The position numbers and the translations under genes are program-made. The notes beneath the pieces were generated by a model. The model had not been told where the DNA came from. It worked only from the letters and a program-made list of their open reading frames with translations, and did no database searches. Of a DNA stretch of 64,000 nucleotides, positions 1 through 63,229 are shown in pieces. The DNA comes from Sorex araneus (lineage: Eukaryota > Chordata > Mammalia > Eulipotyphla > Soricidae). The stretch lies in assembly GCF_027595985.1 (NCBI RefSeq), contig NC_073305.1:167868172-167932171 (forward strand). Direction: 5' to 3'. Each line of letters begins with the position of its first letter. Within the stretch, counting starts at the first letter, position 1.

Positions 1-232
1 ATCCCATTGATTGTGGAATTTCTTGAGTGGTCTCAGTAACGTCTCCATTTGTCCTAACCCTGAGATTTTAGAAGCTGCTCTTTATTCGTCCTTCCCAACG
101 GTGTTGTATTGGAGGCCCTTTCAGGGTCAGGGGAATGAGATCCATCGTTGTTACTGGTTTTGGCATATTAATACACCACATGGGAGTGGGCAGGAAACTC
201 TAGGTAGCTTGCCAGGTTCTCCCAGAGGGAGA
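1..232 (-). repeat. Family B' SINE (RTE-tailed, long variant), cut by window edge
   Basis: Read on the minus strand, this carries the SINE body, the extra B' block (inverse of 'gattggaggctctttcaggg' and 'ccctgagattttag') and the RTE-like tail (inverse of 'cagtaacgtctccatttgtc'). The same block recurs at 32122-32388, 49162-49428, 52140-52310 and, as a tail only, at 62008-62103. The 3' end lies at or before base 1, so the TSD cannot be seen. Confidence 0.7.
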
Positions 233-535
233 ACTTTGTGGCCTTGTGCTTCCAGGAGCTTGGGTTTTATAGTCTCTGGATGTTGGCCGTTGGTGAAATT
301 ACACGGCACCGGTGGCAGTGTCTGGGTGTGATCGCTTAGCTACTGGAAAATGGCGAATCTGGGTGAAAGAAGCCCAGTCCCGATCTGAGTAGGCTTGGAG
401 GTCTCAGCCCCAGGTCCCACACACCTGGGTTCCTCTGTCGGTTGAGAAGGGCCTTGAGCATGGCTGTGGCTAGACTTGGGAGGTCTTCGGCCACGGGATC
501 TCTGCTCAGGGTGGGGAGGGAAATAAGAATATAAA
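233..535. repeat. Unclassified interspersed repeat next to the B' SINE
   Basis: Bases about 283-445 resemble 27400-27545: both carry 'ggtgtga', a 'gagcaagcttggag'/'gagtaggcttggag' segment, and 'caggt(t/c)cca' followed by a copy of 'ctgggtt'. This is therefore a dispersed repeat of moderate age. No coding potential was recognised. It may be the 5' or LTR part of a larger element. Confidence 0.4.
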
Positions 536-5020: not shown

Positions 5021-5254
5021 GGGTTTGGGGATAGCACAGCGGTAGGGCGTTCACCTTTCACTTGACCGACCCATGTTCAATTCCTCGGCCCCTCTCAGAG
5101 AGCCGGACAAGCTACCAAGAGTTTCGTGCCCACACAGCAGAGCCTAGCAAGCTACCTGTGCATATTGGATATGCCAAAAACAGTAACAATAAGTCTCACA
5201 TTGAGAGACGTTACTGTGCCCACTCGAACAAATCCATGAACGACAGGATGACAG
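5021..5254 (+). repeat. Family B SINE (RTE-tailed)
   Basis: tRNA-like head ('gatagcacagcggtagggcg', 'gttcaattcct'), then the body with the near-repeat 'gagccggacaagctacc' / 'gagcctagcaagctacc', then 'tgccaaaaacagtaaca', then the RTE-like tail 'gagacgttactgtgcccact' ending in 'aggatgacag'. There is no poly(A). About 85 bp of unassigned sequence follow to 5340. Confidence 0.88.
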
Positions 5255-5340
5255 AGGATTTGGGGGAGGGGTCACCAGGGGACAATGATGGAGGGATCTT
5301 GACTCACCGGTGGAGAAACTGACAGAGCAGCACTGCATGT

Positions 5341-11026: not shown

Positions 11027-11250
11027 TAGCACTGTCATCCTTTTATTCATCAATTTGCTCGAGCAAATTGACGTCTCCATTGTGAGACTTGTTACTATTT
11101 TTGGCATGTTGAATACACCATGGGGAGCTTGCCAGGCTCTGCTGTGCAGGTGGGATATTCTCGGAAGCTTGCTCTGCTCTCTGAGAGGGACAGAGGAATC
11201 AAACCTGGGTCGGTCGTGTGCAAGGTAAATGCCCTACCAGTCGTGCTATT
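11027..11250 (-). repeat. Family B SINE (RTE-tailed), minus strand
   Basis: Starts with 'tagcactgtcatcc' (tail), then 'tttgctcgagcaaattgacg', 'gtctccattgtgagacttgtt', 'tttttggcatgttgaatacacc', 'cttgccaggctctgc', and 'gaatcaaacctggg' with 'gtgcaaggtaaatgccctacc' (B box and head). The RTE-like part has lost a few bases. Confidence 0.88.
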
Positions 11251-11344
11251 ATATAATCAAAATGATTATTAATATCTATCAGAGTAAATCCATGAAATTT
11301 AATGATCTGCTTAAAATTTTGCCTTCACAGCGACTTGAGACTTG

Positions 11345-12250: not shown

Positions 12251-12428
12251 GGGGCTGGAGCAATAGCACAGCGGGTAAGGACTTTGTCTTGCATGCAGCT
12301 GACCCGGGTTCGATTCCCAGTATTCCATATGGTCCCCCGAGCACTGCCAGGAGTAATTCCTGAGTGCATGAGCCAGGATTAACCCCTGCACATAGCCGGG
12401 TGTGACCCAAAAACAAACAAACAAAAAA
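12251..12428 (+). repeat. Family A SINE, full length
   Basis: Head 'ggggctggagcaatagcaca' with a good A box, then B box 'ggttcgattcc', 'catatggtcccccgagcac', and 'ccgggtgtgacccaaaaac' with a CAAA-rich tail. Flanks 'aaaaactgttatag' and 'aaaaactttaatag' may be a mutated TSD. Confidence 0.92.
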
Positions 12429-20591: not shown

Positions 20592-20832
20592 ATTGTAGCA
20601 CTGTTGTCCTGTTGTCCATCGATTTGCTTGAGCAGGCACCAGCAACATCTCCATTGTGAGACTTGTTACTGTTTTTGGCATATCAAATACGCCACGGGTA
20701 GCTTGCCAGGCTCTGCCTTGTGGGTGGGATATTCTCGGTAGCTTGCAGGGCTCTCCGAGAGGGACAGAGGAATTGAACTGGGTTGGCCTCGTGCAAGGCA
20801 AACGCCCTACCTGCTGTGCTATCGATCCAGTC
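20592..20832 (-). repeat. Family B SINE (RTE-tailed), minus strand
   Basis: Tail inverse 'gtagcactgttgtcctgttg', 'catcgatttgcttgagcagg', 'acatctccattgtgagactt', body 'tttggcatatcaaatacgcc', 'agcttgccaggctctgcc', and head inverse 'cctacctgctgtgctatcg'. Nearly full length. Confidence 0.93.
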
Positions 20833-29345: not shown

Positions 29346-29594
29346 TTGGGCCAGAGCAATAGTGCGGCAGGTAGGATCTTGCATGCAGCCGACCTGAGTT
29401 CCATTCCTCCATCCCTCTCGGAGAGCCCAGCAAGTTACCGAGAGTATCTCGCCTGCACAGCAGAGCCTGGCAAGCTCCGTGTGGCGTCTTCGATATGCCC
29501 AAAATGGTAACAACAAGTCTCACCATGGAGACGTTACTGGTGCCCGCTCTAACAAATCGATGAGCAATGGAATGACAGTGACAGTGATACAGTG
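29346..29594 (+). repeat. Family B SINE (RTE-tailed), full length, with TSD
   Basis: Head 'ccagagcaatagtgcggcag', 'gagttccattcctccatccc', body 'gagcccagcaagttacc' / 'gagcctggcaagctcc', then the RTE-like tail 'atggagacgttactggtgcc' and a terminal 'gacagtgacagtgatacagtg'-type repeat. TSD attatcaaat is perfect at 29336-29345 and 29595-29604. There is no poly(A). Confidence 0.95.
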
Positions 29595-31857: not shown

Positions 31858-32084
31858 AGGACTGGAGTGATAATACAGCAGGTAGGGCGTTTGCCTTGCA
31901 CGCACCGATCTGAATTCGATTCCTCCATCCCTCACAGAGAGTCTGGCAAGCTACAAAGAGTATCCCATGCATACCTGTGGCATATTCGATATGCCAAAAA
32001 CAGTAACAAGTCTCACAATGGAGATATAACTGGTGCCCCCTCGATTAAATTGACAAACAACAGGATAACAGTGCTATAATGCTA
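31858..32084 (+). repeat. Family B SINE (RTE-tailed), with TSD
   Basis: Head 'ggactggagtgataatacag', 'gaattcgattcctccatccc', body, 'atatgccaaaaacagtaaca', and a decayed tail 'gagatataactggtgccccc'. TSD atatataata lies at 31848-31857 and 32085-32094. The A+T-rich target makes chance identity possible. Confidence 0.88.
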
Positions 32085-32121: not shown

Positions 32122-32384
32122 CACTGTACCACTGTCCTCCCATTGTTCATCTATTTACTCGATGGGCGCCAGTAGCGTCTCCATTCGTCCCAGCCCTGAT
32201 ATTTTAGCAGACTCTCCTTACTCGTTTTTCCCAATGATTGGAGGCTCTTTTCAGGTTCAGGGGAATGAGACCTGTTATTGTTACAGTATTTAGCATATTG
32301 AATACACCACAGGGAGCTTGCTAGCCTCTCCCTTGTGTGTGTGGGTAAGAAACTCTCAGTAGCTTGCTGGGCGCTCTGAAAGGG

Positions 32385-32388
<4 letters not shown>
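32122..32388 (-). repeat. Family B' SINE (long RTE-tailed variant), 5' truncated
   Basis: Reverse-complement: 'actgtaccactgtcctccca' (tail), 'cagtagcgtctccattcgtc', the extra block 'agccctgatattttagcaga', 'ctccttactcgtttttccca', 'atgattggaggctcttttca', then the family-B body. It ends at 'gcgctctgaaaggg', before the tRNA-like head, against an (AT)n tract. Confidence 0.88.

Positions 32389-32425
<37 letters not shown>
32386..32425. repeat. (AT)n tract between B' SINE and RTE LINE
   Basis: About 40 bp of almost pure AT. It lies exactly between the truncated 5' side of the B' SINE and the 3' terminus of the RTE LINE, all on the minus strand. Confidence 0.95.
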
Positions 32426-32429
<4 letters not shown>

Positions 32430-34600
32430 TTGTATCACTTGAACACTTGTAGTCGCATTGATCTTTGATTTCCTCAAGCAGGCACCAGTAACGTCTCCAT
32501 TTGTCCCTGTCTCAAGCTAGTGTGGCCCAGTGATATCTGCTCACTCCAGGAACAGGAAGAGCCCCAAATCGTTCACACAGAGATTTGACGAAGAAATCTG
32601 ACCATCTAGTTGGTGGGTTGCCACGAGGTCTTCTGACATCCCGTGGAATCCAGTCTGTAACAGCTCTAGTCCAGCGGTCATCTCTGAATCGCATTACATG
32701 ACCGGCCCATCTGATTTTTGATGCCTTGGCAAATGAGATAGCATTTCTGATTTTTGACCGGTGATGGAGGTCAGAACTCCGGATTCCTTCTCTCACTTGA
32801 GTGAGACATGATATTCCCAGCATAGCTCTTTCGACTCCTCTTTGGGATACCCTAATGCTGTTCTCATCCTGTTTGCATAGGGCCCAGGTCTCTGAGCCAT
32901 ATGTTAGTGCAGGAAGAACAGTGGAATCGAAAAGATGTGCCCAGAGTCAGAGGTTCTTCTTTCTCTTAACCACGTCTTCTACGCTGTTGAATACATTCCA
33001 TGCTGCTCTCTTCCTCCTGCGCATTTCTGGCACTAAGTCATTCCTCATGTTGATTTCTTGACCCAGGTACACATAGCTGCTGCATTCAGAGATGTTCCTT
33101 CCATTAAGAGCAAATGGAGCTTTAGGGATCAGTTCGTTTTTCATGAACATCGTCTTGTTGAGATTCAACTGCAATTCAACCTTTCCACACTCGTGGTCGA
33201 AGTTGGTCAGCATTTCTGCTGCTTGGCTAATGTTTGGTGTTATGAGAACGATGTCATCAGTGAAGTGCAGGTGGTGTAATTATCGACTGTCTATCTTTAC
33301 TCCCATTCCTTCCCATTCCAGTCGCCGCATATTGTTCTCAAGGGCGGCACTAAAGAGTTTCGGTGAAATGGTATCACCCTGACGCACCCCTCTCTTTACA
33401 TGAATGATCACTTCTTTGTAGAATGGTGAGATCCTGGTGGTGAATCCACAATACAGCTTGCGGAGGATTTTGATATACTGAGTTTGAATGCCCTCTTTGG
33501 CCAGAGCTTCGATGACAGCCTCAGTCTCAACAGAATCGAAGGCCTTCTTTAAGTTGATGAACGTTAGACAGAGCGGCATCTTGAACTCTCGCGAAACTTC
33601 AATGAGTTTGGTCACTGTGTGGATATGGTTGATTGTGCTGAATCCCCTTTGGAACCCGGCTTACTCACATGGTTGTCCTTCGTCTAGTGTTCTGTCTATT
33701 CTATTTAGGATGACACGAGGGAACAACTTGTAGACGACAGACAGCAGGCAGATTGGGCGATAGCTGCCAATGTCGTGAATGTCTCCCTTCTTGTACAACA
33801 GAACTGTCCTGCTAGTTTTCCACTGGGATGGAACCTTGCATTCAGACAGGTAGCGTGTGAAGAGTCGGGCCAGTGTATTTATGAGTACTGGCGGCAGATT
33901 CTTTAGGTGTTCGGGTCTGACTTTATCTGGACCAGGTGCTGTTCGCGTCTTTACCAGCGAAATGGCGTGTTGGATTTCAGAAGGGAGAACGTTGGGAATG
34001 ACTTATCCATCCTGCAGAATTTGGTATGTAGGCAGGTGGACATGGCTATCAAAGAGATCTGGGTAGAGGTCATGAATAATTTTCTCCATTGCCTTTCTGG
34101 AGGATGTGATAGATCCATCAGGACATCGAGGGCAGTCATCTTGGTTTTGTAGTTGGCGAAGGACAGGCGAGCGTTGCGAATACTTTTCCTGGCTTCTGCT
34201 GCACTGGCCAACACTGCTGCTTTTCTCTCTTTGAGGTCTTCCTTTATCACATCTCTGCACAGCTTTGTGAGCTCAGACATTAGCTTGTGGTTGCCTGAGG
34301 CTCGTGCCAAACCACGTTGACGAATGAGCTCAAGAGTATTCGAAGACAAGCATCTGTTTGTGGCTTTCTAACTCTCAGCATTCTTCGCACAGACATGGAG
34401 GTGCTGAACCAGTTGATCATATTCCTCGTTGATGTTGTCAAGAACGGCATCTTCCCACATTGATGCAATAGTGCCAAAGAGCTCCCAGTGGGTGGTCATT
34501 CTGGGAGTTGTCTTCTTAGACTTAACTTAGACTTAAATTTTGCAGACTTTTCTCCCCGCTCTGTGAAGTAGAATTTCACATGAAAGAGACGATGATCTCC
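32426..34600 (-). mobile_element. RTE-type LINE, nematode-like, 5' truncated, decayed
   Basis: RTE LINEs encode an apurinic-type endonuclease and a reverse transcriptase (RT) in one frame and end in short tandem repeats, not poly(A). In minus-strand order: end of the endonuclease ('GDHRLFHVKFYFTE'), linker ('LIRQRGLARASGNHKLMSEL'), RT blocks ('YRPICLLSVVYKLF', 'CLTFINLKKAFDSVETEAVI', 'KRGVRQGDTISPKLFSAALE'), catalytic 'FTDDIVLITP' (both Asp kept), 'NISECSSYVYLGQEINM', 'IRWAGHVMRFRDDRWTRAVT' and 'ARDRDKWRRYW' near the end. Several frameshifts and stops break the frame, so it is inactive. The 3' terminus is a CAAGTGATACAAGTGA-type repeat. The block set is that of the RTE family I know from hookworms and other strongylid nematodes. 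The 5' end at 34600 abuts an A+T-rich microsatellite. Confidence 0.9.
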
Positions 34601-36301: not shown

Positions 36302-36552
36302 GCACTGTCATTGTAGCACTGTTGTCCCATTGTTCATCAATTTGCTCGAGCGGGCACCTGCAATGTCTCCATTTTGTGACTTGTTGTTACTGTTTTTGGC
36401 ATTTGAATACACCACGGGTAGGTTGCCAGGCTTTGCTATGTAGGCAGGACACTCTCAGTAGCTTGCTGGGGTCTCTGAGAGGGGCGGAGGAATCGAACCC
36501 AGGTTGGCCACGTGCAAGGCAAATGCCCTACCCTCTGTGATATGGCTCCAAT
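36302..36552 (-). repeat. Family B SINE (RTE-tailed), full length, with 15-bp TSD
   Basis: Tail inverse 'gcactgtcattgtagcactg', 'tttgctcgagcgggcacctg', 'gtctccattttgtgacttgt', body, 'gaatcgaacccaggttggcc' (B box inverse) and 'tgatatggctcca' (head inverse). TSD aca(g/c)taaagataata lies at 36287-36301 and 36553-36567 (one mismatch). No poly(A) or poly(T). Confidence 0.95.
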
Positions 36553-45857: not shown

Positions 45858-46027
45858 AAATGCAATAGGTTTATTAAATCGTAATTTATTAAATGTACTA
45901 TCTTTGAACTACCGCAGTATTTCTCTATATTTTTAAGTATGCGATTAATTTTACAAAACAAATTAGAATTTTGTGAAAAGTGAGTCAATGAAATATGTCT
46001 AATAACTAGTAAAATTACGTGAAAATT

Positions 46028-46205
46028 CCCCCACCCCTCTCGGAGAGCCCGGCAAGCTATCCCTCCCACAAGGCAGAGCCTGGCAAGCTCCCCGTGGTGT
46101 ATTCGATATACCAAAAACAGTTAACAACAAGTCTCACAATGGAGACGTTACTGGTACCTGCTTGAGCAAATCGATGAGCAACGGGATGACAGTGATACAG
46201 TGATA
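46028..46205 (+). repeat. Family B SINE, 5' truncated, excellent RTE-like tail
   Basis: Starts inside the body ('ccctctcggagagcccggca'), so the tRNA head is missing. The tail is well kept: 'caatggagacgttactggta' onward translates as WRRYWYLLEQIDEQRDDSD, the C-terminus of an RTE frame. It ends in 'gacagtgatacagtgata'. Confidence 0.93.
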
Positions 46206-46904: not shown

Positions 46905-49161
46905 GCCAAACCTCTTAATTTGATCACATTGACTTGTTATTTGTCTTTCTCCTATAGATTGGTTCTTTATAAATTATTTTATATTCCATCACATGGGTTT
47001 ATATGTGATAAAAATCAAACTGTCTCTTCCTGTCTGTGTATAATTTTCACATGTATACAGAAAGACTATTTTTACATGATTAAACTTGAAATATATTTTT
47101 CCATAACATGTTTGAAAACCTCTTCTATATTTTAAAACACACTGGACTAGTGAGTAACTACTGCAATTATTTTCTTTTCATCAATCATCATTTTAGTTTT
47201 ATCATCTATAATTTAAAACTAGAACTTATCAGACTTTTGACAATGATTAATAGTATTTTCTTTTAATGTTAGCATACCTTCTGCTGCTATTTTAAAATGA
47301 ATCTCAGAGGTAAACCTACTTAATTACTTGTGCCAGAATTTATGTGTCATTTTTTTCTAAAACAATTATTTTATTTTTTTTAGTAAAATGAAAGAGGAAA
47401 GAACTAGAACATACAAATTTGCTTAAAGTGCTGTATTAATTATGCTTGACTATTTCATCAATCAATGCTTGAAAATAATACATAAGATATATTTCTATTT
47501 TAAAACTTTTTAAGTTTCTATTTTCTAATATGCTCTAAAGCAGGTTTCCTGCATGGCTAGTAGTCACATAGACTAACATTCATGCTCATAAAAATGACTA
47601 TATTATGATGTACTATGTTGCACTATGTTATCATTATAAGTGGTCAGACAGAGCACTCTGATTCTATAATATTGAACTTTAGAACTAATTTTTAATTGTT
47701 TTGTAACTGTATTACTATGTTGAGTGTTGCTTTTTAATGAAAATTATTTCTAGGTTTATAAATAAAATAGTTCATCAGAACATAGAAAAAGAAACAATTT
47801 ATATATTATAAAAATATACCATGTACTAAATTTTATCTTAAATTGTATTTTGAACAGTCCATTAAAATACAAAGTAAAGCATTTTCTCATACACTAACAA
47901 AAAAAAAAGGCATAGATATGCAGTTCACTAATGAAATATATTTAAAAGTCAGCTGCCTCAAATGAGGAAAATTTTCAAGAATCATTACATTAAAATTTCA
48001 TTCTATTAAAATTAAGGTTGAATCTTAACCTCTGATTGATATTTAACCATCAGTAATATGTTTCTTTTAATTATTAATTTGTCACATGTTTGTCGCTCCG
48101 GTCTTCACTCTTTCTTCATGATTTGAAGCAATCTGCATGAGAAAAACTAGATGAACTGCTGGAATAAATATTGACAAGATCCATCAGTGAGGGTTTTTTT
48201 CTTCAATAATTAATTTAGTCATATTTGGTCAAGAGGGGCTTTTATGCAGAAGCTAAAAATAAAAGGCTCTCCCAAATGCAGTGGCTTAATACAGCACAGT
48301 GTTTTTTTTTCTTTATGTCTCAAATATGAATTAAAATATTTTTATACCCTGGTCACTCTGTAATAGATCCACACAGAGTCTCCACCTTAAGGCATGCATC
48401 TTTATTGCTTTGGCCAAGATAATGGGAATATTGTGAATTATAAACTACCTTTTGGACTTTCCAGTAGGAATAGAAATATGTCACTTTTGGTTTTCTTACA
48501 CTGATCAAAATGTGTGATCATGTCACAGGTATTCCTGTGTCACTTGCCCCCATCTCTCTGTCTGCACCAATCACTGAGTTTTATTTAGGTTGTGAAGCAG
48601 AACTCACCACCTCATTGAAGGTGAGAGAGCGAGGAGTATTTATCAAGTAGCTCTACTGCACAGGCTCTCCATTTCTGGGACTAAGTATTTTGTGAACTTT
48701 CTGTGCCTTGGATAAAAGGTTTATATATTCCCAAGATATATAAACCTTAAGCTATTTTCATTCACAAAACCAAACCAAAGTCCACTAATTCTGGATCTTC
48801 TATAGTAGTCATTCCATTTAGCTGAAACAAACAAACAAACAAACAAAAATTAAGAACATCTTTAACAAAAATAAAATATTCTCTTGATCAACAAAAACAA
48901 ATGAATTAATTAGTAAATAAATAGACACATAACTTACTTGCCCTTGAACTTCCAAGTTTTCCATTTTGAAGACTTCCACAGGTCTTCCATACACTCAAAG
49001 GGCAGATGTTAATAGATATGAAGACTTTCAGGGAAGTTTTGAAAAGTTCTCTACCTTAAATGTGTAGAACATTTTATGACAATAGTCTGTTGTGGAGCCT
49101 CATGCATGAGTGAACATATTCCTGGACTGACACATTATCATAGAGGGAAATATATCTATAT
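46905..49161. other. 2.2-kb A+T-rich stretch with a (CAAA)n run
   Basis: Repeat-poor, unique-looking DNA. A (CAAA)6 run lies at about 48822-48847. No open frame or repeat core was recognised. Confidence 0.45.
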
Positions 49162-49428
49162 GCCTCTCGGAGAACCCAGCAAGCTACAGGGAGTATCCCA
49201 TCCATACAGAAGAGCCTGGCAAGCTCCCCGTGGCATATTCAATATGCAAAAAACAGTAACAATAATAGGACTCATACCTCTGAACCTGAAAGAGCCTCCA
49301 ATCGTTTGGAAAGACAAGTAAGGAGAGGCTGCTAAAATCTCATGGCTGGAACAAATGGAGATATTACTGGCACCCACTCCAGTAAATCGATGAACAGGAT
49401 GACAGTGATACAGTGATACAGTCTAGAT
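49162..49428 (+). repeat. Family B' SINE (long RTE-tailed variant), 5' truncated
   Basis: Starts in the body ('gcctctcggagaacccagca'), has 'aagagcctggcaagctcc', then the extra block 'gaacctgaaagagcctccaa' to 'gctgctaaaatctcatggct', then the RTE-like tail 'atggagatattactggcacc' and 'gacagtgatacagtgata'. The tRNA head is missing. Confidence 0.9.
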
Positions 49429-50356: not shown

Positions 50357-50507
50357 CCTACCTTCCTTCCTTCCTTCCTCCCTTCCTTCCTTCCTCCCTC
50401 CCTTCCTTCCTTCCTTCCTTCCTTCCTTCCTTCCTTCCTTCCTTCCTTCCTTCCTTCCTTCCTTCCTTCCTTCCTTCCTTCCTGCCTTCCTTCCTCCCTC
50501 CTTCCCT
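50357..50507. repeat. (CCTT)n microsatellite, ~150 bp
   Basis: Long pure runs of CTTC units with a few CTCC and CTGC interruptions. Open frames that read Leu-Pro-Ser-Phe repeats across it are artefacts. One strand is all pyrimidine, so a triplex-type structure is possible. Confidence 0.97.
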
Positions 50508-51763: not shown

Positions 51764-52013
51764 CACTATCACTCTCACTGTCATTCCGTTGCTCAGAGAT
51801 TTGCTCGAGCGGGCACCAGTAACATCCCCATTGTGAGACTTGTTGTTACTGTTTTGGGCATATTGATTACGCCACAAATAACTTGCCAGACTCTTCCATG
51901 AGGGAGAGACACTCTTGGTAACTTGCTGGGCTCACAGAGGGGGTGGAGGAATCGAACCCAGGTCAGCCACTTGCAAGGCAAATGCCCTACCTGCTGTGCT
52001 ATCTCTCCAGTCC
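51764..52013 (-). repeat. Family B SINE (RTE-tailed), full length, perfect 12-bp TSD
   Basis: Tail inverse 'cactatcactctcactgtca', 'gatttgctcgagcgggcacc', 'catccccattgtgagacttg', body, 'gaatcgaacccaggtcagcc' and head inverse 'ctgtgctatctctccagtcc'. TSD cagatatatgat is perfect at 51752-51763 and 52014-52025. Confidence 0.96.
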
Positions 52014-52139: not shown

Positions 52140-52310
52140 CACTCTGTCACTGTTATCCTGTAGTTCGTCGATTTACTTGAGTGGGCACCAGTAATGTCTC
52201 TATTACACTCAGCCCTGAGATTTTAGCAGACTCTCCTTACTCATCTTTCCCAATGATTGGAGGCTCTTTCAGAGTCAGGTGAAGGAGACCTCTATCGTTA
52301 CTGTAGGTAG
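52140..52310 (-). repeat. Family B' SINE, 5' truncated
   Basis: Tail inverse 'ctctgtcactgttatcctgt', 'gtgggcaccagtaatgtctc', extra block 'cagccctgagattttagcag', 'actctccttactcatctttc' and 'gattggaggctctttcagag'. It stops near 'atcgttactg', before the family-B body. Confidence 0.85.
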
Positions 52311-55000: not shown

Positions 55001-55983
55001 ATCAGAGACTGTTTCTTGGCTCTATCTACTCAGTTCCAATTGTGTCCTGATAAATCTAGCTGCATCAATGCTACTGAAAAGTTTTTCAAAGACATAGCTT
55101 GTGGTCATTTAAATACTCCTATTATTTTCATTTCTTACATTACTTTTGGTTTATCAATATTTTTAATTATAATTCATTCAATTTGTTTCTTTTATAATAG
55201 CTTAATGCCATAATTTATTTACATACTTTGAAACTTATGTCATTAATTCACTGAATTACTATTCTAGTAATATGTACATTCAGAAATAATTTTCTACATA
55301 CCCAGTTAGGATATAAAACAAGGCATTTTAAAGAAGAGAAGTCAAACTGTAAGTAGGATATTTTGTAACATTAGATCTCTGAGAATTATGAGAAGCGTGA
55401 TAGAAATAAACCCAATTATGTATATTTAAGGTGTAACAAGGAAAGTGAACTGGAGATATTATAGAACTCAAAGAAAATGAATAGTGAATAATAAAATTGA
55501 CTACAATGAGATAACAAAGTGTTGTTTCTTATTTTGTGTTTTAGGAGATGATGGGTGAGGAGAAAAGTTCAACAATATTAATATTACACATATAAGAATC
55601 AAGAAGCACAAATATCCTGTTTCACAAACCAAATACTTTGACTATGGGATAAAATACCCTGACAGTATTGCAAAGATTGGTGTATGAACCAGATTAAAAA
55701 AATTTAGTTACTTAGGAAAATTCAAGTTACACCATATTTTTAAAATTCGACAGATAGATGCAGTTGGAGGAGCTCATATCATATGTCAAATTATTTAATG
55801 TCTAAATTAAGTTCACAAAATTTTAATAAATTGTGTTCTATCCCGTCTTTACAAATACACTTGCATTATGGTAAAATGCGTAAAATGTTTTAAAATCACC
55901 TAAACTTTACACATTATCAAAGATAATAGACAATGATGATTCCATGCATGGGTATTTGTTCTGTTGATAGAATATATTTAAAT
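55001..55983. other. A+T-rich stretch, nothing recognised
   Basis: Unique-looking DNA between SINEs. Confidence 0.45.
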
Positions 55984-56192
55984 TGATTCCTGCGTCCCTC
56001 TCGGAGAGCCCGGCAAGCTACCAAGAGTATCCCGCCAGCACGGCAGAGCCTGGCAAGCTACCCATGGCTTATTCAATATGCCAAAAACAGTAACAACAAG
56101 TCTCACAATGGAGGTGTTACCGGTGCCCACTCGAGCAAATCATTGAGCAGCAAGATTTGCAGAGGGACAGTGACAGTGACAGTGACAAAAAA
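55984..56192 (+). repeat. Family B SINE, 5' truncated
   Basis: Starts at 'gattcctgcgtccctctcgg', just after the B box, so most of the head is missing. The body is well kept, with tail 'caatggaggtgttaccggtg' and an end of (AGTGAC)4. The 'ttgcagagg' before the terminal repeat is an insertion relative to other copies. Confidence 0.9.
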
Positions 56193-58858: not shown

Positions 58859-59105
58859 CAGCACTGTATCACTGTCATCCAGTTGTTCATCGATTTGCTC
58901 AAGCGGGCACCAGAAACATCTCCATTGTGAGACTTCTTGTTACTGTTTTTGGCATATCGGATATGCCACAGGTAGCTTGCCAGGCTCTGCGGTGCGGGAG
59001 AGATACTCTCGGTAGCTTGGCGGGCTCTATGAGAGAGATGGAGGAATCGAATCCAGGTCACCTGCGTGCAAGGCAACCTCCCTACCTGCTGTACTATCCC
59101 TCTAT
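58859..59105 (-). repeat. Family B SINE (RTE-tailed), full length
   Basis: Tail inverse 'gcactgtatcactgtcatcc', 'catcgatttgctcaagcggg', 'acatctccattgtgagactt', body 'ttggcatatcggatatgcca', 'gaatcgaatccaggtcacct', and head inverse 'gctgtactatccctctatc'. TSD not obvious. Confidence 0.93.
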
Positions 59106-59607
59106 CTCTATTGGAAATCAGAAACCATTCATTAATGGTTTCTTAATGAATGCTTGCCAATAAATAAGGTTGGCAGGTCTACCCTGAGAATATGAGAAGT
59201 TGAGTCTGATCATTAATTGTATCATGCAATTAATCTGCACATCTGGGTTTCCAGATACAAGATAATAAATTTCCATATTTTATGCTGATTTTATTTTATT
59301 TGCATGGAAAGACAGTTAGGCTGCTAAGCATATGAAAGACGTATTGACCTATTCTAAAGCAGGAGAGATGTCAATTAATAGAATATTTAAGTAGTTTGGG
59401 ACAAGGAAAAATGCAAATTCTATTTAGAGTTGTATGCAATATTTTGGAAATGTCCAAAACCTGAAAAGCACTGACTTAAAAATTTAAAGAAATCAGGACT
59501 AAAATTTAATATTTTTCTTTGTATTAACAGAGTTATTTTACAAAAATCTCATTTCTTTATTATTTATTCAATTTAATAAGATAATTTTGTTATGTGCGTG
59601 AGAAAAA
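59106..59607. other. A+T-rich spacer, nothing recognised
   Basis: Unique DNA before the second RTE LINE. Confidence 0.45.
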
Positions 59608-61475
59608 TCACTTGTATCACTTGTCATACCATTGATCTTCGGTTTGCTTGAGTGGGGGCCAGTAATGTCTCCATTTGTCCCTGTCGCGTGCTAGCGTATC
59701 CCAATGGTTTTTGAACACTACAGGAACACAAAGAGCCTCAAACTGTCCATTCACAGATTTGACGAAGAAGTCTAAATCATCTCGTAGGTGGGTGGTCACG
59801 TGTATTTTGATATCCTATGGAATCCAGTGGGTAACAGCTCTAGTCTAGCGGTCATCGTTTCAGTGAAACGTGATAGTCCAAGCATAGCTCTTTAGATTCC
59901 TCTTTGGGATACCTGAATAGCGTTCTTGTCCTGTTTTCATAGGGCCCAGATCTCTGAGGTGTATGTTAGTGCAGGAAGAATGGTGGAGTCGAAAAGATAT
60001 GCCAGAACCAGAGGTTCTTCGTCCTCTTAACCACTTCTTTGACATTCTTGAAGGCACTCCACTCTGCTCTCTTCCTCCTGCGCAGTTCTGGTGCCAAGTC
60101 ATTCCTCATGTTGAGTTCTTGACCCAGGTACACATAGCTGCTGCATTCGAAGATGTTCGTTCCGTGTCTTGGTGAGATTCAGCTGTAGTCTGACCTTTCC
60201 ACACTCACGGTCGAAGTCTGCCAGCATTTGTATCTCTTGGCTAGTGTTCGGTGTTATTAGAAAGATTTTATCGGCAGTGTAGCTACTGACCATCTATCTT
60301 CATTCCCATTCCTTCCTATTCAGTCATCCCATGACTTTCTCGAGGGTGGCACTGAAGAGTTTCGGTGAAATGGTATCACCCTGCTGAACCCCTCTCTTTA
60401 CATCAATGATCACTTCTTTTTAGAATGGTGAGTTCCTGGTGGTGAATCTGTAATACAACTCATGAAGGATCTTCATGTACTGAGTTTGAACACCCTGCTT
60501 GGCTAGGGTTTAGATGACCACTTCAGTCTAAATAGTATCAAAGGCCTTCCTTAAATTGATGGACATTAGAAGAGTAGCATCTTGAACTCTTGCAAAACTT
60601 CAATGAGCTTGGTCACTATGTGGATATGGTCGATTGTACTGAATCCTTTTAAGAGCCCGGCTTGCTTGCATGGTTGTCCTTCATCTACTGTTCTGCCTAT
60701 TCTATTTAGGATGACTCAAGTGAACAACTTGGAGATGACGGACAATAGGCAGATTGGGCGATAGTTGCCGATGTCATGGATGTCTCCCTTCTTGTACAAC
60801 AGAACGATCCTGCTGGTTTTCCATTGGGACAGAACCTTGTATTCAGACAGGTAGATTGTGAAGGGCCGAACCAGTATATTGATGAGATTCTTCAGGTGTT
60901 CGAGTCTGATCTTGTCTGGACCGAGTGCTGTATGCGTCTTTACCAATGAAATGATGTGTTGGATAATTCCTACAGAATTTGTTATATGGGTAGGTGGATG
61001 TGGCTGTCAAAAAGATCCCAGTAGAAGTCATGAATAATCCTCTCTGTTGCCCTTCTGCAAGATGTGATAGAGACATCAGGACATTGGAGGGCAGTCATAT
61101 TAGTCTTGTAGTTAGTGCATAGATGACGAAGATAGAAACTGCCGGCGGTGAGCCACATCTATTCAAGCATAATCGTCCAATTCAGGTTGTTAGTCATTCG
61201 AATGTATCAATGTTCATGGCCAAGTTTGTGTTGACAAGGACCCCAACACCACCAACGCCTCTATTGTCGAATATCCTGAGGAAGATTTCTTCTCCAGTGT
61301 CGAAAATGGTGTAATGTGATTGATGCCTTTTCGTCTTGGTCAGACCAATGATGTCTTACTTGATTTTCTGCTCTTGCACCATCAGGTCCTCGATAGATGT
61401 TTCTGATGCCAGCGTATGTGCATTGAAAGTACAGACGATCATTTTAGTCCTTCTTCATTTTGGCAGTCTAGTTCA
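59608..61475 (-). mobile_element. RTE-type LINE, second copy, with endonuclease start and internal deletion
   Basis: On the minus strand it opens with 'MIVCTFNAHTLASETSIEDL' and 'RGVGGVGVLVNTNLAMNIDT' (N-terminal half of the endonuclease). Around 61110-61130 it jumps to the region before the RT, so the rest of the endonuclease and the linker are missing. The RT follows: 'KTHTALGPDKIRLEHLKNL', 'WKTSRIVLLYKKGDIHDIGN' and 'YRPICLLSVISKLFT'. The catalytic box reads 'TADKIFLITP', with the second Asp replaced by Lys. It ends 'DKWRHYWPPLKQTEDQWYDK', a stop, and TGATACAAGTGA. It shares the layout and 3' terminus of the copy at 32426-34600 but is more decayed. No gene function remains. Confidence 0.88.
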
Positions 61476-61998
61476 TCCCTGAGATTTTAGTTTAATTCAT
61501 AAACATAAATGAGTTTAATTCATAAATTAGATAAAATTGGTAGTACTTTTCCCTAAGAATTTAAAATATCTCTTAATAACACTATAATGTTATTCAAATT
61601 TTTATTTGAAGGAAAAAAATCATTTTTGTTAAGTACAATACCTCCAATGCCTAAATCTTTTTTGTATTGTATTTACTTTTATTATCTTTGCGTTGGTAGA
61701 CTGGTTATTATATACTAATTAAAATGTATATTGCAACAGACTCAATCCCTACAAAATTGTAAACTATCAACTGACTTACAAATTATTTTTTACATTGACT
61801 TCAAAAATGTTACTAACTTCAACAAATTCAAATTATATTCTTTTGTACTATGAACCATAAATACCTGTGGACAATTTAACAGTCAAATTACTTTTATTCA
61901 ACATTTGAAAAATTCCCAAAAGTGTTAATACAAGATTTTTCTGTAATATGTATGTATGTACAAATATATGTGCATACATACATATATATGTGACATAT
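61476..61998. other. A+T-rich spacer with a TATG-rich run
   Basis: 'atgtatgtatgtac' and 'catacatacatatatatg' at 61945-61995 form a short microsatellite. Otherwise nothing recognised. Confidence 0.5.
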
Positions 61999-62007
61999 AA
62001 TTCCTGC

Positions 62008-62103
62008 TAAAATCTCAGGGCTGAGTGTAATAGAGACATTACTGGTGCCCACTCGAGCAAATCAATGAACAATGGGATGACAGTGATACAGTGTGATGCA
62101 GTG
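62008..62103 (+). repeat. 96-bp RTE-tailed fragment with perfect 9-bp TSD
   Basis: Starts 'taaaatctcagggctgagtg' (last part of the B' block), then 'gagacattactggtgcccac', 'gagcaaatcaatgaacaatg', and the 'gatgacagtgatacagtg' end. TSD aattcctgc is perfect at 61999-62007 and 62104-62112. It is therefore a separate insertion, truncated to the B' 3' end. Confidence 0.88.
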
Positions 62104-62975: not shown

Positions 62976-63229
62976 GCAGGGTCCATGCAATAGCACAGCA
63001 GGTAAGGCGTTTTCCTTGCATACGGTCTACCTGGGTTTGATTCCTCCGTCCCTCTCGGAGAGACTGGCAAGCTACCGAGAGTATCCCACCTGCATGGCAA
63101 AACCTGGCAAGCTACCCGTGGCGTATTCGATATGCCAAAAATAGAAACAACAAGTTTCACAATGGAGATGTTACTGCTGCCCACTCTAGCAAATCCACGA
63201 GCAACAGGATGACAGTGACAGTGACAGTG
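62976..63229 (+). repeat. Family B SINE (RTE-tailed), full length, perfect 12-bp TSD
   Basis: Head 'gggtccatgcaatagcacag', B box 'gggtttgattcctccgtccc', body with 'gagactggcaagctaccgag' and 'aacctggcaagctacccgtg', tail 'caatggagatgttactgctg', then (GACAGT)n. TSD atttaatatatt is perfect at 62948-62959 and 63230-63241. About 16 unexplained bases lie between the 5' TSD and the head. Confidence 0.95.

Follow-up and report, generated by a model that had tools for sequence, protein, structure and literature searches.

Repeat elements of the window

The window, the whole 64,000-nucleotide (64-kb) stretch of Sorex araneus DNA that was analysed, holds copies of SINE A and SINE B, the related B-prime elements and two RTE LINEs, located as follows.

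46025..46205, plus strand, SINE B copy cited in the first-pass annotation (there from 46028), 5'-truncated and headless, nhmmer model 62-242 for 46025-46197
46035..46130, plus strand, body of the cited copy, LINE 5'UTR piece, 84/94
46138..46205, plus strand, tail of the cited copy, LINE C-terminal codons plus GTGATACA repeats, 60/68
5023..5255, plus strand, SINE B, model 4-238
11028..11251, minus strand, SINE B, model 10-241
20597..20831, minus strand, SINE B, model 3-241
29349..29583, plus strand, SINE B, model 2-242
31860..32075, plus strand, SINE B, model 2-241
36315..36551, minus strand, SINE B, model 4-241
51775..52012, minus strand, SINE B, model 2-240
55983..56174, plus strand, SINE B, 5'-truncated and headless, model 59-241
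58867..59105, minus strand, SINE B, model 4-242
62985..63220, plus strand, SINE B, source of a genome query, model 7-242
1..281, minus strand, B-prime, cut by the window start, blastn matches to the B-prime consensus at 1-178 and 186-281
32122..32394, minus strand, B-prime, 80% over 274 columns (blastn)
49140..49415, plus strand, B-prime, 82% over 279 columns (blastn)
52140..52304, minus strand, B-prime, 5'-truncated, 94% over 165 columns (blastn)
62004..62093, plus strand, B-prime, 5'-truncated, 93% over 90 columns (blastn)
32424..34598, minus strand, RTE LINE, 5'-truncated, model 3-2159, score 2650
59604..61488, minus strand, RTE LINE with internal deletions, reaching the ORF start region, pieces 59604-59856, 59858-61118 and 61095-61488
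12256..12328, plus strand, SINE A head, called tRNA-Ala (tgc) by ARAGORN

The first-pass annotation had counted 15 SINE copies against two LINEs; the two LINEs stand, and the count beside them is 11 SINE B plus 5 B-prime copies. Its description of a tRNA-headed SINE holds for the SINE B family, but not for the cited copy or for B-prime, both of which are without the head. The cited copy starts 62 positions into a model of about 242, the copy at 55983 is also headless (model start 59), and the other nine SINE B copies start at positions 2-10. Positions 50357-50505 hold a (CCTT)n microsatellite with about 37 repeat units. Genome searches covered 2.4 Gb in 65 contigs.

Composition of SINE B and the LINE that shares its ends

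SINE B is about 250 bp long, and its majority-rule consensus was dissected by alignment. Nucleotides 3-65 match the SINE A head at 62 of 63 positions (score 121, shuffle maximum 29), nucleotides 64-174 match the LINE 5'UTR at 104 of 111 (score 187, shuffle maximum 33), and nucleotides 182-241 match the LINE 3' end at 55 of 60 (score 90, shuffle maximum 30), with a 7-nt junction between the 5'UTR piece and the 3'-end piece. By its 62/63 identity to the SINE A head, the SINE B head is predicted to be of pol III promoter type; ARAGORN called two window SINE A copies tRNA-Ala and zero SINE B copies. SINE A, whose body differs and whose tail is poly(A), has only the first ~63 bp in common with SINE B, and the SINE B consensus is without poly(A), its tail closing with GTGATACA-type repeats like the LINE. 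We take SINE A to be, probably, the shrew SINE known as SOR. SOR is described, in the accessible text of two papers, as lacking a pol III terminator (T-minus) and as transcribed in transfected HeLa cells (PMC7279448, PMC8466645); if it is SINE A, it differs from SINE B beyond the first ~63 bp, in body and in tail.

By these alignments SINE B is a tRNA-type head joined to a body that is internally deleted and derives almost entirely from the LINE, and the LINE capture appears bipartite, comprising a 5'UTR segment plus the 3' end. The LINE-derived part had been placed in the last ~70 bp, which are LINE-derived, but so are the preceding ~110 bp. The 5'UTR origin was found through a B-prime consensus (12 genome copies) that matched regions upstream of LINE ORFs, and a LINE 5'UTR consensus was then built from 8 LINE loci, 7 of them independent (L021 and L022 are a duplicated segment). 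The segment lies upstream of the ORF at the same place in all 8 loci, and ends roughly 55 bp before a candidate start codon (ATGAGCAAAGAG, read by eye). Since the LINE 5'UTR segments carry a variant set absent from the SINE B consensus, they do not represent a SINE inserted before the LINE.

For the cited copy, whose K2P distance to the SINE B family consensus is 0.037 (CpG excluded), the body at 46035-46130 aligned to the LINE 5'UTR consensus at 84/94 (score 102, shuffle best 27, n=1000), and the tail at 46138-46205 aligned to the LINE 3' consensus at 60/68 (score 86, shuffle best 29 in 1000 dinucleotide-preserving shuffles), bearing out the earlier claim that the tail is the 3' coding end of an RTE LINE. 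Against the individual window LINEs, 46138-46203 matched the copy at 59608 at 54/66 (score 62, shuffle best 27, n=1000), and 46138-46205 matched the copy at 32426 at 56/68 (score 71, shuffle best 28, n=1000). Retranslation agreed with the peptide readings given earlier for all three elements: the cited copy ends ...WRRYWYLLEQIDEQRDDSDTVI, the C-terminal reading of the LINE at 59608 is RDRDKWRHYWPPLKQTEDQWYDK*YK*, and that of the LINE at 32426 is DRDKWRRYWCLLEEIKDQCDYK. The SINE tail matches coding sequence because the LINE ORF runs into the 3' end of the element, and both tails close, as had been noted, in short GTGATACA(A)-type repeats and not in poly(A). A fall of the match to chance level, one of the checks proposed in the first-pass annotation, was not seen: the scores of 62-187 stand against shuffle maxima of 27-33, and with no supporting point found for it, the probability of chance resemblance is negligible.

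Conservation of the tail for its encoded peptide is highly improbable. The reading frame can be followed in many copies, and B-prime joins the apparent first ORF codons in frame to the C-terminus (by eye), yet an in-frame stop falls within the 51-bp tail in 7 of 24 SINE B copies, a test that superseded a mixed set of SINE B, LINE and B-prime tails (stop in 14/41). Third-position changes (23/306 versus 8/285 and 17/331) include 12 of 23 at one A/G subfamily site, and coding conservation was rejected on the stops and on this single-site third-position excess.

The LINE was characterised from 30 genome loci. With 32424..34598 as query, at least 40 other genome places matched at 86-90% (best 40 candidates scored), and the longest open frame among the 30 loci was 768 aa (L011). 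Pfam searches found RVT_1 in L011 (5.1e-26) and Exo_endo_phos in L016 (2.4e-07). The ORF protein gave 1192 matches at E up to 0.001, and among the 120 of these that were listed every visible species name was that of a strongylid nematode (genera Necator, Ancylostoma, Haemonchus, Nippostrongylus and Heligmosomoides; also Strongyloidea), though many listed rows are nameless and vertebrate transposon proteins are perhaps poorly represented in the database. Identities among the listed matches were 42-76%, the best full-length ones 69-74%. By its predicted endonuclease and reverse transcriptase domains and its strongylid relatives, on which the name rests, the LINE is assigned to the RTE clade. It is probably RTE1_Sar, published as a horizontally transferred element of the common shrew (Dunemann and Wasmuth 2019, PMC6542046) and likewise an RTE LINE that is abundant in a single mammal and has relatives in the strongylids Heligmosomoides and Nippostrongylus; the main text of that paper, as far as accessible, is without the terms "SINE", "UTR", "non-autonomous" or "short interspersed".

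Nematode RTE C-termini such as DEWRRYWRPLEEVDDQRDDR resemble the SINE tail reading WRRYW..LEQIDEQRDD, which argues that the tail went from LINE to SINE and not the reverse. The common LINE tail (GAAGATCAACGGGACTACAAGTGA) and the SINE tail (GATGAACAACGGGATGACAGTGA) differ at several sites; among the 30 LINE loci the common type was found in 28, the SINE type in one (L020) and neither in one (L034), and the common tail occurs within 3 mismatches at 592 genome sites. The L020 LINE, with its SINE-type tail (IDEQRDD), may be related to the LINE lineage from which the SINE B tail came. It could also be cited for the opposite direction, in which the LINE took its ends from a pre-existing SINE B; terminal exchange between SINE and LINE is conceivable, but this direction is very unlikely, given that the tail codes a C-terminus like those of strongylid-nematode RTEs (which bears on the tail, not on the 5'UTR segment) and that the SINE B median K2P of 0.065-0.068 is not above the 0.042-0.137 of the LINE pieces.

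Two further features of the genome loci were observed. Minus-strand 5'-region matches occur in eight LINE loci (L011, L012, L026, L027, L030, L031, L032 and L038), and these inverted 5' parts suggest 5' inversion during insertion. Three pairs of loci (L021/L022, L075/L077 and L090/L091) are near-identical with their flanks included, and are probably duplicated segments.

Insertion sites, divergence and abundance

As given in PMC13295347, TSDs of RTE insertions begin with an A preceded by T and have a run of thymines some 10 nt upstream; the L1 insertion site is quoted there as TT|AAAA. For SINE B, TSDs were found in 17 of 55 full-length copies (same criterion, 1/1082 shuffled pairs), and a looser scan gave 19/42 (1.1% in shuffled). 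At the 17 sites, T stood at -1 in 13, A at +1 in 13 and both in 11, the A at +1 being inflated, since the final ...GTGA of the SINE B tail lengthens the match; neither the T at -1 nor the T run is subject to this bias. TTT was present at -16..-8 in 11/17, against 4/17 in the interval -25..-17 and a frequency of 0.198 in far-flank 9-mers (binomial P 7e-5 for the excess over background). SINE B insertions therefore carry the RTE-type signature, in a small sample of 17 TSDs.

For SINE A, 25 of 139 copies had TSDs (control 3/1374), with A at +2 in 23/25, at +3 in 20/25 and at +4 in 19/25, an A-run inflated by the poly(A) tail, T at -1 in 12/25 and TTT at -16..-8 in 5/25; at least one of the 25 TSDs (L005) is simple repeat. 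SINE A insertion sites look L1-like on this pattern, and the upstream TTT separates the two families (SINE B 11/17 versus SINE A 5/25, Fisher P 0.008).

For the LINE, L009 and L022 were left out before counting, and a free TSD scan scored 9 or more at 13 of 28 loci (3/72 shuffled pairs). Visual inspection removed four of the 13 (L018, L021, L025 and L033), which were of low complexity, lay inside a LINE or SINE, or were off the junction; the remaining 9, at the 5' junction, showed T|A in 6 and TTT in 5 (counted by eye). A scan with preset 5' boundaries, thought to be misplaced, gave 0/28.

It is very unlikely that SINE B was moved by L1 like SINE A, with its LINE-like parts as passive passengers. 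L1 moves many RNAs, the SINE B head is the same as that of the L1-type SINE A, and L084 holds a 3'-truncated SINE B with an (AAAT)n ending; against this, the SINE B consensus has no poly(A), and the two families, within one genome, have unlike insertion sites, as the TTT comparison shows. SINE A and SINE B have the same head but differ in tail and insertion scar, which is most simply explained if the choice of copying enzyme depends on the LINE-derived part, and we infer for SINE B mobilisation in trans by the LINE protein.

K2P distances were calculated with CpG sites excluded for SINE B, with a median of 0.068 for 33 copies and of 0.065 (range 0.033-0.117) for a strict set of 24. By part, the head looks the most diverged at 0.102, against 0.057 for the body and 0.067 for the tail, from few sites (719, 2018 and 1097, respectively). 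Six LINE pieces from outside the best-hit sampling lay at 0.085-0.137 (two of them from a duplicated segment), the window LINE at 59608, which is one of the six, at 0.122, and that at 32426, the genome query, at 0.042; 29 best-hit LINE copies, the 32426 copy included, had a median of 0.031, a set biased close to the consensus. By this set, some LINE copies postdate the majority of SINE B copies. The proposed check for a SINE B that predates the RTE, run on about six independent LINE copies, found SINE B not older than the LINE by divergence; a LINE sample this small does not prove the order of origin. SINE A divergence is bimodal (K2P near 0.09 and 0.30, 110 copies), which suggests two bursts, and older SINE A copies existed that could have supplied the SINE B head.

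In 213 kb (window plus flanks), SINE B covers 3.6%, SINE A 8.9% and the LINE 2.8%; this sample is non-random, being chosen around repeats, and the SINE B figure includes B-prime pieces. The SINE B junction word CAAGTCTCACAATGGAGA, 18 bp long, has 81,882 exact occurrences in the genome (reversed-word control 0), and the true number of SINE B copies should be a few times larger, given about 7% divergence.

Proposed origin, known systems and deleted LINE forms

We assign a probability of about 0.9 to the reading that SINE B is a tRNA-headed SINE, composed of the SINE A head and LINE ends, and mobilised by the neighbouring RTE LINE. Support for the core of the earlier proposal, in which a tRNA-headed SINE carries, as in ruminants, the 3' end of an RTE acquired by horizontal transfer, comes from the consensus alignments, the nematode relatives of the LINE protein, the published transfer of RTE1_Sar (PMC6542046) and the RTE-type insertion signature. 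In the proposed sequence of events, a pol III promoter head of ~65 bp, common to the poly(A)-tailed SINE A, would have been fused to an internally deleted RTE LINE transcript that retained ~111 bp of the 5'UTR together with the final ~68 bp. SINE B RNA would be made by pol III, the RTE protein would recognise the common 3' end, and perhaps the 5'UTR segment too, and reverse transcription would be primed at T|A sites that have a run of T some 10 nt upstream; the site pattern is observed, the enzyme presumed. RNA folds of the tail were no more stable than those of shuffles (z -0.91 and 0.06), and no recognition hairpin was found in them.

SINEs of this type are known from other hosts. Bov-B SINEs such as Bov-tA reportedly carry bipartite Bov-B 5' and 3' parts, and the Bov-B SINE Ped-2 is said to have taken its head from an existing SINE (ID), both reportedly described by Gogolevsky, Vassetzky and Kramerov (2008, Gene 407:75). 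Ped-2 and SINE B would be alike in a head from a pre-existing SINE. The partner of Bov-tA is Bov-B, whereas the LINE partner of SINE B is closest, among the 120 listed of 1192 protein matches, to strongylid-nematode RTEs, the only names visible there, which would speak against Bov-B as its partner. AviRTE SINEs, in the accessible text of Suh et al. 2016 (PMC4844689), combine a promoter-bearing head with a bipartite tail made of a LINE 5'UTR part plus the 3'UTR, and AviRTE is common to nematodes and vertebrates through horizontal transfer. They resemble SINE B in the promoter head and the bipartite LINE-derived part, and differ in RTE family, in host (birds) and in their heads, which are tRNA-Glu, 5S rRNA, 28S rRNA or GC-rich (PMC4844689), whereas the SINE B head is that of a tRNA-Ala-like resident SINE. 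SINE B shares the features of bipartite RTE SINEs, namely a predicted pol III-type head, a LINE 5' body, a LINE 3' tail ending in short tandem repeats and not in poly(A), and, in a small sample, the RTE-type insertion signature. No description of a shrew RTE SINE was found in the open-licence PMC literature, including the accessible text of PMC3183009, PMC4476161, PMC5857283 and PMC12026660, and the family may already be in Repbase or Dfam. The class of bipartite RTE-mobilised SINEs is thus known, and SINE B is undescribed in the open-licence PMC literature searched.

If the published nematode-to-shrew transfer is true, the shrew genome gained a worm-related LINE and, from its ends, a large SINE family. 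The two-ended design from an RTE is a further case after Bov-B and AviRTE, and suggests that the design is required. One head with two insertion scars makes SINE A and SINE B a natural experiment on the role of the SINE 3' part, and the same pair, one head with two bodies, would make a two-end requirement directly testable. SINE B insertions might also be markers within shrews.

A more general reading, which we hold tentatively and rate somewhat below even odds, is that RTE reverse transcriptases need the 5'UTR segment in cis plus the 3' end, so that neither could be lost by an RTE parasite. The same 5'UTR segment is retained in SINE B, in B-prime and in the further deletion forms found, and Bov-B and AviRTE SINEs would have kept theirs independently, which bears on this reading; apart from 5'-truncated copies, none of the non-autonomous forms seen has lost the 3' end or the 3' part of the 5'UTR module.

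B-prime is a LINE with an internal deletion and no tRNA head. A tRNA-headed B-prime was rejected, as no head in the orientation of the element lies beside the 12 genome B-prime copies, the sole head match near them (L070) being on the opposite strand. B-prime holds two tandem copies of the 5'UTR module, reaches the apparent first ORF codons and joins the 3' end near a GGGACRAA-like shared word (by eye). The 39 genome matches listed besides the query, taken from the best 40 of 2107 candidates, share 91-94% identity with the window copy, and B-prime may be a separate non-autonomous family of recent origin. The B-prime 5' end seems to run past the consensus built here (L080).

LINE-like upstream sequence combined with the SINE tail was found, within 3 mismatches, at 41 genome sites (reversed-pattern control 0). 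The 12 of these that were examined were rejected as parent LINEs with a SINE-type tail: all 12 have 5'UTR-like sequence shortly upstream, and they are therefore internally deleted forms. Among the 12, ten (L081-L087 and L090-L092, with L090 and L091 near-identical) have a third deletion form, in which 5'UTR CCCAATAYG is joined to 3'-end CCATCGGGCTACACTAGC with a SINE-type tail (by eye), and L088 and L089 have other junctions. L084 was rejected as a headed deletion form, since its head belongs to an adjacent, separate, 3'-truncated SINE B. This SINE B, which ends in (AAAT)n and lies beside the deletion-form element, may have had a different history at its 3' end.
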